Shown piece after piece: positions 40,326-43,586 of a DNA stretch of 43,586 bases (position 1 is the stretch's first letter; each line of letters starts with the position of its first letter). Both the position numbers and the translations under genes were made by a program. Origin of the DNA: Candidatus Gastranaerophilales bacterium (GTDB taxonomy: Bacteria > Cyanobacteriota > Vampirovibrionia > Gastranaerophilales > Gastranaerophilaceae). The notes below the pieces were generated by a model. That model saw only the letters and a program-made list of their open reading frames with translations, ran no database searches and was not told the origin of the DNA. The stretch lies in assembly GCA_944322755.1 (NCBI GenBank), contig CALUPY010000021.1, positions 1 to 43,586 of the forward strand, read 5' to 3'.

Positions 40326-40352
40326 TTGACTCAAAGTATTTTATGATAAAAT
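40326..40352 (+). promoter_or_regulatory. Predicted promoter of tRNA-Pro(GGG)
   Basis: TTGACT (40326-40331), 15 nt, then TAAAAT (40347-40352) preceded by TGA as an extended -10. The same arrangement and surrounding TATTTTATGATAAAATTA occur before the other tRNA-Pro transcription unit (43045-43071), which supports function. Confidence 0.6.
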
Positions 40353-40388
40353 TATCATGTAATTTGAAAATTAAATAGATACTCGAAT

Positions 40389-40465
<77 letters not shown>

Positions 40466-43044: not shown

Positions 43045-43071
43045 TTGTTTTTAAATATTTTATGATAAAAT
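43045..43071 (+). promoter_or_regulatory. Predicted promoter of the repeat array and tRNA-Pro(CGG)
   Basis: TTGTTT (43045-43050), 15 nt, TAAAAT (43066-43071) with a TGA extension. Its sequence and spacing mirror the promoter of tRNA-Pro(GGG) at 40326-40352. Transcription would start near 43078 and run through all repeat units into the tRNA, about 365 nt away. Confidence 0.55.
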
Positions 43072-43083
43072 TAATAATGTAAA

Positions 43084-43213
43084 TTGAAAATTAAATATCT
43101 AATCGGGATACTCTGCCGAAAAAAATATGACTAAATGTCATATTTTTTGAGAGGAAGCAGCGTAGCTGCGCAGAGTTCTCTATATCGAAAATAAAATCTA
43201 ATCGGGATGTAGC
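43084..43213 (+). repeat. 130-bp direct repeat, copy 1
   Basis: Identical over 130 bp to 43326-43455 (offset 242). It contains the leader TTGAAAATTAAATATCTAAT, structured unit A, an A-rich linker, and the first 11 nt of the tRNA-Pro sequence (CGGGATGTAGC). After that point copy 1 continues into unit B, while copy 2 continues into the real tRNA. Confidence 0.97.
43104..43186 (+). ncRNA. Structured unit A (first copy), putative RNA element
   Basis: Starts CGGGATACTC. Predicted helices: outer ACTCTGC (43110-43116) with GCAGAGT (43170-43176); an internal hairpin AAAAAATATGAC (43120-43131), loop TAAAT, GTCATATTTTTT (43137-43148); and GCAGC-GTA-GCTGC (43157-43169). Together they form a three-way junction. 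No open frame. Shares the 13-nt apical hairpin TGACTAAATGTCA with unit B. No Rfam family recognised by eye. Confidence 0.6.
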
Positions 43214-43321
43214 AAGGACTCCGTACAAAAGCTGACTAAATGTCAGGTTTTGGATGGAGGCAGGCTAAGTCAGAAACGAAGTTTCTGCGTGCCGTATAAC
43301 AATTTAAAACCAAGCTGCATC
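43203..43321 (+). ncRNA. Structured unit B, putative RNA element related to unit A
   Basis: Begins with the same CGGGATGTAGC as the tRNA, then diverges. Outer stem GATGTAGC (43206-43213) pairs with GCTGCATC (43314-43321), one G-U. CTCC (43219-43222) pairs with GGAG (43256-43259), enclosing AAAAGCTGAC, loop TAAAT, GTCAGGTTTT (one mismatch). GGCA/TGCC closes CAGAAAC-GAA-GTTTCTG (43271-43287). The order of helices and the TGACTAAATGTCA apex match unit A with different stem sequences, as expected of a conserved RNA fold. Confidence 0.58.
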
Positions 43322-43325
43322 AACT

Positions 43326-43455
43326 TTGAAAATTAAATATCTAATCGGGATACTCTGCCGAAAAAAATATGACTAAATGTCATATTTTTTGAGAGGAAGC
43401 AGCGTAGCTGCGCAGAGTTCTCTATATCGAAAATAAAATCTAATCGGGATGTAGC
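43326..43455 (+). repeat. 130-bp direct repeat, copy 2
   Basis: Perfect copy of 43084-43213, including unit A (structured part 43346-43428) and running into the functional tRNA-Pro(CGG). Recombination between copies would delete unit B and 242 bp. Confidence 0.97.
43346..43428 (+). ncRNA. Structured unit A (second copy), putative RNA element
   Basis: Same sequence and helices as the first copy at +242, lying 16 nt before the mature tRNA 5' end. In a common transcript it would be part of the tRNA precursor leader, removed by RNase P. Confidence 0.6.
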
Positions 43456-43518
43456 GCAGCTTGGTAGCGCACCGTGTTCGGGTCGCGGGGGTCGCAAGTT
43501 CGAATCTTGTCATCCCGA
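43445..43518 (+). tRNA. tRNA-Pro (anticodon CGG)
   Basis: Cloverleaf of 74 nt without CCA. Acceptor CGGGATG pairs with CATCCCG; D arm GCGC-AGCTTGGTA-GCGC; anticodon stem CCGTG/CGCGG closes TTCGGGT, giving anticodon CGG for CCG codons; T arm GCAAG-TTCGAAT-CTTGT. Discriminator A is followed directly by TTTTTT, which may terminate transcription, so CCA must be added by nucleotidyltransferase. The other tRNA-Pro here does encode CCA. Confidence 0.95.
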
Positions 43519-43586
43519 TTTTTTCTATCTTTTTTCAATGGATGGACAAGATTTCATCTTGCCACAACCGGCCTAAGATTACGCTT
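43519..43586. other. Window end: T-tract and small hairpin
   Basis: TTTTTTCTATCTTTTTT is followed by CAAGAT-TTC-ATCTTG near 43550-43565, a 6-bp hairpin with a 3-nt loop. No gene is supported before the window ends. Confidence 0.4.

Follow-up and report, generated by a model that had tools for sequence, protein, structure and literature searches.

An intact tRNA-Pro(CGG) gene lies near the end of the window (the whole 43,586-nt stretch of Candidatus Gastranaerophilales DNA that was analysed), preceded by structured units in the order A, B, A, and the question that this locus raises is what such units are. An earlier note on this DNA had offered a non-coding RNA array, a precursor with regulatory leaders, or a mobile element that targets tRNA genes. 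The last of these is the best supported, since the hairpin core of unit A as well as unit B recur at many tRNA loci and in unrelated palindromic repeats. The array is therefore probably made up of short palindromic non-coding repeats, apparently mobile, that belong to a family restricted to the Gastranaerophilales and have lodged in tRNA ends.

All features of the window described here are on the forward strand. The tRNA gene (43444-43519) was called by ARAGORN and matches Rfam RF00005 (58.4 bits), as the earlier reading had it. The 130-bp direct repeat is indeed perfect, with copies at 43084-43213 and 43326-43455 (spacing 242), and takes in unit A plus the first 11 nt of the tRNA body (CGGGATGTAGC, at 43445-43455). 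The 12-mer TCTAATCGGGAT occurs exactly four times (43098, 43197, 43340 and 43439), once ahead of each unit and of the tRNA, where 0.01 copies are expected and four copies were reached in 0 of 100 shuffles. The units also fold much more stably than shuffled sequences do (z of about -5 to -6 for unit A and of -4.7 to -6.0 for unit B).

Reading towards the tRNA, a putative promoter region (TATTTTATGATAAAATTAATAATG, 43050-43083) is followed by a leader (TTGAAAATTAAATATCTAA), a first truncated copy of the tRNA 5' end (TCGGGAT) and a single A (together 43084-43110, an arrangement also seen at other tRNAs), after which comes the first type-1 hairpin core (43111-43154; 71.7 bits against covariance model R1, with covariation). 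The tail of this unit A (43155-43187) folds into a small hairpin, GCAGCGTAGCTGC, and a stretch that partly pairs back, and contains an inverted match to the tRNA D-arm, GCGCAGCT. A leader with a second 5'-end copy (CGGGATGTAGC, 43188-43213), still within the perfect repeat, leads into unit B (43214-43300), a type-2 repeat that is about 90 nt long and forms two hairpins (AAGGACTCCG...GTGCCGTATAA; the core at 43219-43260 and the second hairpin at 43261-43293). The tail of unit B (43301-43325) carries an inverted D-arm copy (CCAAGCTGCATC) that closes a stem on GATGTAGC in the fold of 43201-43323 (z -6.0). The second copy of the perfect repeat then supplies a leader with a third, truncated 5'-end copy (43326-43352) and the second type-1 core (43353-43396, again 71.7 bits against R1), and the tail of this unit A together with the last leader (43397-43443) runs up to the tRNA.

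On the 3' side of the tRNA a different tandem unit begins (43520-43586), which had been overlooked in the first reading. It is about 139 nt long, has no core, and combines the tRNA 3' end (CATCCCGA) with an inverted T-arm copy (43545-43570, inverted repeat I2). The contig of the window stops inside this unit, which continues, and is repeated, on contig C9:1-205 of the same genome (L174; G000 denotes the window's genome, G001, G002, G003 etc. related genomes, and L numbers loci) and is seen in G002 as well.

The tRNA-type promoter that had been proposed in front of the array is plausible but unproven. A block from ATTTTATGATAAAATTA to TTGAAAATTAAATA (43053-43108) is 84% shared with the upstream region (40334-40393) of tRNA-Pro(GGG) (40389-40465), a paralogous locus without units that serves as an internal 'empty' comparison, and the promoter region is kept in G002; the promoter itself was assigned by consensus, and the consensus scans upstream of the array are weak taken alone. 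Its position between this likely promoter and the tRNA makes transcription of the array probable. An artefact of assembly is in practice excluded, because a second species of the genus (G002, contig C27) preserves the whole arrangement of promoter, A, B, A and tRNA, with the tRNA-Pro(CGG) sequence identical.

Unit A contains a bulged hairpin of 44 nt (CTCTGCCGA..GACTAAATGTC..GAGAGG), which in the alignment of distinct cores consists of CTCT, a bulge GCCGA, a 12-pair stem, the loop TAAAT and AGAGG. Its apex, GACTAAATGTC, is present in 20 copies in the window's genome, compared to one for the reversed control. In the aligned stems 92% of the cells are paired and 55 cells carry double changes, versus 15.6 in shuffles (the GAC/GTC pairs flanking the loop were set by the search pattern and do not count as evidence), and this signal collapses when the pairing is slid by one column. 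Paired changes are far more frequent than one-sided ones, which fits hairpin-templated copying, while selection on an RNA can give the same.

With the covariance model, the core was detected in 111 of the 117 sampled genomes of the family and in 127 of 292 genomes of the phylum sample, with a single carrier outside the family. Copies number about 20 in the window's genome, with 43 matches in G008 and up to some 55-75 in G088, and such numbers are lower bounds in draft genomes because assemblies break at tRNA arrays. Named records with the core are mostly gut assemblies of Candidatus Gastranaerophilales or Melainabacteria; the few others (e.g. Muribaculaceae, an Acinetobacter bin) may be mis-binned contigs. 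Carriage by phages was set aside, the exact core pattern giving 0 matches in the IMG/VR viral contigs. The Rfam search suggested in the earlier note returned tRNA only, at gathering as well as relaxed thresholds (E up to 5), with no family for the units and no rtT. A group I intron, considered for the motif ACTAAATG, was rejected for lack of a match and because 44 nt is too little for one, and so was a T-box or tRNA leader regulator, given the lack of a match and the antisense copies.

The core is strongly associated with tRNA ends. The earlier note had held that its reading would fall if related genomes lacked homologous units near their tRNAs, and such units proved to be abundant. Among 109 distinct copies, drawn from the best-scoring loci and thus not a random sample, 69 are followed within 1 kb, on the 3' side, by a tRNA or tmRNA gene (41 in sense, 28 in antisense), and in 11 such a gene lies on the 5' side; the 28 antisense units lie beyond the 3' end of the gene. 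To the left of the core stands a copy of the tRNA end: in sense units usually the first 11-12 nt, falling in the D-arm (7-8 nt at initiator tRNA-Met and tRNA-Pro), and in antisense units 11-14 nt of the 3' end, falling in the T-arm. To the right, tRNA sequence appears again, either direct (GGTAG.. or GAACC..), inverted, or both, many of these tails being direct and not inverted. The resulting order is end copy, core, tRNA piece, leader or terminator, and intact gene, and the same logic recurs at L151, L141 and in arrays at tRNA-Leu, Val, Lys, Met and Phe. The two flanks of a core pair with each other (mean -10.5 kcal/mol) better than flanks swapped between loci do (-9.05 kcal/mol), a value as low as that observed being reached in 0 of 5000 permutations. 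A conserved leader like TTGAAAATTTAATA is found shortly upstream of most tRNA genes of the family, with or without a unit.

When the flanks of all 41 tRNA genes found in the window's genome were gathered locus by locus, 19 turned out to be flanked by a copy of their own end (11-20 nt), with 5'-end copies upstream of 13 genes and 3'-end copies downstream of 10, compared to 0.1-0.9% when tRNAs were swapped between loci as a control. The reverse complement of the tRNA end is likewise seen in many of these flanking units. Some of them (at Asp, Ile, Gly, Leu-CAG, Ser-CGA and the 5' side of Val-TAC) are coreless and contain other palindromic inserts, and G089, a related genome free of the core, has 5'-end copies at 0 of 43 tRNAs and 3'-end copies at four, some with the same architecture but a different repeat family. 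Because of these other inserts, the core is the commonest, but not the sole, occupant of tRNA-end units. At the tmRNA gene, an antisense core marks the gene end in G001 (contig C2, L058), while in G000 two units of this kind (C2:2133 and 4079, L012) are set apart by other, ORF-containing DNA of about 1.9 kb and 1.4 kb. In the same genome, a ParD/ParE toxin-antitoxin pair sits between two tRNA-Phe-type cores in a cassette-like manner (C36:22-870, L015).

The repeats are not confined to tRNA genes. In G001 unit B is dispersed away from them, within other palindromic repeats, and further copies occur away from tRNAs in other genomes; the type-1 core too is present in dispersed palindromic repeats without a tRNA, for example in G109, where it occupies the loop of the ATTCTGAGC/GCGAAGAAT repeat. 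At L064 an element related to unit B has taken the place of part of the hairpin in one tandem unit but is missing from its neighbour, and at L226 a type-1 core is nested inside a type-2 element, so that nesting of hairpins, as also seen for unit B in G001, is common. A dispersed palindromic repeat in G109 (~150 bp; e.g. L122, L123, L126-L128, L130 and L131) has an identical core at many loci, and the sequence at its end (..AAATCCAAGAC) is also how the family of inserts begins that is found at tRNA 3' ends in G089 and at Asp and Ser-CGA in G000.

Signs of movement come from comparison within and between species. In G088 identical cores are present at His and Met (antisense) and at Lys and Leu (sense), and in G109 in two different palindromic repeats. 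Between the window and G002 the apical loop is flipped from TAAAT to ATTTA in both copies of unit A while the stem is kept. Exchange through a DNA hairpin would be expected to give such a flip, and selection on an RNA loop would not. The insertion point at tRNA-Pro follows TCGGGAT in G000 and G002, and GCGCAGCTTG in G003 (L170); since insertion points thus differ within the genus, this suggests repeated events at the same tRNA-Pro gene. No clear-cut insertion was obtained that could be matched with an empty site in a close strain.

The mechanism that would account for these observations is that the repeats settle in DNA able to form hairpins, i.e. the D-arm of a tRNA (on the 5' side), its T-arm (on the 3' side), the tmRNA end or dispersed palindromes. 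At a tRNA this would leave, in order, the original end, the inserted repeat, in many cases the end once more in inverted form, a leader or terminator, a rebuilt end and the remainder of the tRNA. The gene would thereby remain intact, with the outer end copy persisting as a relic. Tandem amplification of units would then produce an array like A-B-A. In the case of tRNA-Pro(CGG), transcription from the old promoter probably crosses some 0.35 kb of hairpins before it reaches the tRNA, which ordinary 5' processing would release from the read-through transcript. We infer that the cause is insertion, rather than repeated local template switching, and exchange would be at the level of DNA and not of RNA.

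A dedicated enzyme that correlates with the cores was sought among REP-associated tyrosine transposases (RAYTs), reverse transcriptases and tyrosine recombinases, and none was identified; the spread may depend on an unrecognised enzyme or on host repair functions. Reverse transcriptases are patchy (28 of 60 genomes) and were rejected as driver for want of correlation, G008 with its 43 core matches having none and the coreless G050 having three matches.

It is possible, although on balance rather doubtful, that nothing mobile is involved and that the units are local copying errors only, in which replication, held up by tRNA hairpins, folds back or switches to another template. Such a process would explain why pieces of the neighbouring tRNA occur in the units in both direct and reverse-complement form, why the loop is inverted between species, why tandem copies are homogenised and why no dedicated enzyme correlates. 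What it leaves unexplained is that the same 44-nt core, with the same edges, is present at many tRNAs and in other repeats, and that unit B is dispersed. Local copying may nevertheless form the flanking tRNA-end copies and the arrays, and it seems likely that both processes contribute, with template switching forming the end copies and arrays while core hairpins spread between hairpins.

Site-specific recombination, with the units as mini-cassettes or remnants of attachment sites whose targets are tRNA ends and whose enzyme is a tyrosine recombinase (as in integrons or integrative elements), is an unlikely alternative to mobile palindromes. The duplication of tRNA ends with breakpoints in the D- or T-arm does resemble that caused by integrative elements, the units stand in tandem like cassettes (in one case, apparently, with the ParDE pair between Phe-type cores), the inner and outer terminators of the core-free Ser and His units of G089 differ, and some of these tRNAs have integrase genes nearby (for instance on C19 and C11 of G000). 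Against this, G008 combines 43 core matches with just two tyrosine recombinases, as many as XerC and XerD would account for, the targets differ among tRNAs while the core is common, and many tails are direct and not inverted. Integron cassette arrays consist of tandem units that each contain an imperfect palindrome (attC) folding as a single strand. The recombinase matches found here are generic PF00589 ones, with no integron integrase (IntI) identified among them. The array differs from integron arrays in that the target differs per locus and there is mostly no cassette gene; the conserved core sequence, by reading alone, has no obvious attC R'/R'' box.

The units could also be functional RNAs that act as structured leaders, or are released from the tRNA precursor as small RNAs, and control tRNA maturation or serve as decoys, a reading that we consider very unlikely. 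Stable folds, compensatory changes in the stem and a position between a likely promoter and the tRNA all agree with it, and the conservation of core structure at several tRNA loci across genera could reflect function instead of mobility. However, the antisense copies beyond gene 3' ends, the copies in palindromic repeats away from tRNAs, and a core that evolves no slower than intergenic DNA (86% identity to G002, versus 94% for upstream intergenic DNA) make this less likely, and the antisense units and the loop inversion in the sister species weaken both RNA options of the earlier note. In addition, G002 has a broken stem pair (GAGAGG to GATAGG) in both A copies, the paralogous tRNA-Pro(GGG) manages without a unit, and no Rfam family was matched.

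Finally, mobilisation of REP elements by a RAYT is highly improbable, in spite of RAYT genes in 38 of 117 genomes of the family, two of which, their identity confirmed by NCBIfam REP_Tyr_transpos (143.8 bits versus a cut-off of 80), are nested in tRNA-Phe hairpin units where they replace the apex (L151, G088 C7, 1462-2237; L141, G111 C9, 242-920), because RAYTs are absent from two thirds of the genomes and from the window's genus (no match to PF01797 in G000-G003), the nested genes are flanked by their own, different hairpins (GTAG-tagged in L151), and the core has no GTAG or CGTC tag. The likeness to REPs is otherwise considerable, as the palindromes of the GTAG and CGTC super-families are 20-40 bp long, multicopy, lineage-specific, sometimes located inside palindromes and sometimes near RAYT genes (PMC3733652). 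With 44 nt and about 20 copies the core is likewise a short, intergenic, high-copy palindrome, but its invariant feet are CTCT..AGAGG instead of the defining tag, and it strongly prefers tRNA and tmRNA ends with end copies.

Returning to apparently mobile palindromes as the preferred reading, a close parallel, alongside the REPs that lie in palindromes, is provided by the GC clusters of yeast mitochondria, such as GC42, which are mobile palindromes of about 42 nt that merge, nest and shuffle, with a palindrome under constraint and no known enzyme (PMC4478555). Neurospora mitochondrial palindromes, as far as the citing paper relates, flank tRNA genes (Yin 1981, cited in PMC4478555). The units of the Gastranaerophilales differ in being chromosomal, in lying precisely in the D- or T-arm, and in having tRNA-end copies and tandem arrays. 

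Other bacterial repeats share part of this anatomy. The repeats of the E. coli tyrT operon (rtT) are tandem, adjoin a tRNA, carry a fragment of its 3' end and are known from one locus. The comparison with them in the earlier note was fair as far as layout is concerned, the repeat here also carrying a fragment of the adjacent tRNA, but that fragment is the 3' end in tyrT, whereas here both tRNA ends are involved, at 19 of 41 tRNA genes and with a common hairpin; homology to the rtT RNA family was not found in Rfam. Rickettsia palindromic elements and bacterial MITEs, too, are short palindromic repeats without coding capacity, and they can lodge within genes (see also PMC3733652). The core and unit B are similarly short, non-coding and dispersed, but their host site is the tRNA end, and neither a target-site duplication of the MITE type nor a parent transposon with shared ends was found, although the tRNA-end copies resemble long duplications. 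In the literature that was searched, nothing relevant turned up on such repeats in Gastranaerophilales or on bacterial palindromes targeting tRNA genes. 

It may tentatively be proposed, then, that the units represent a previously undescribed class of tiny non-autonomous elements that choose DNA fold over sequence, enter the D- or T-arm of tRNA and tmRNA genes or other hairpins, rebuild the tRNA end so that the gene survives, and have colonised nearly every sampled genome of the family without a recognisable transposase. The carriers are a family of gut-dwelling, non-photosynthetic relatives of the cyanobacteria. Transfer RNA genes are classic landing sites of large bacterial integrative elements, and units of about 100 nt do something similar here at about half of a genome's tRNA genes and at both ends, leaving a readable record in the end copies. 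If confirmed, this would be a bacterial counterpart to mitochondrial GC clusters and to the tRNA-targeting retroelements of eukaryotes, and the long-standing question of how enzyme-less palindromes spread would become testable with strain collections.

The arrays would load tRNA precursors with long structured leaders, and a practical effect is that they break assemblies at tRNA genes. In G000, contig ends lie at these tRNA arrays in C5, C9, C11, C16, C20, C36 and C42, the end of C16, which adjoins C36, being a tRNA-Phe array.
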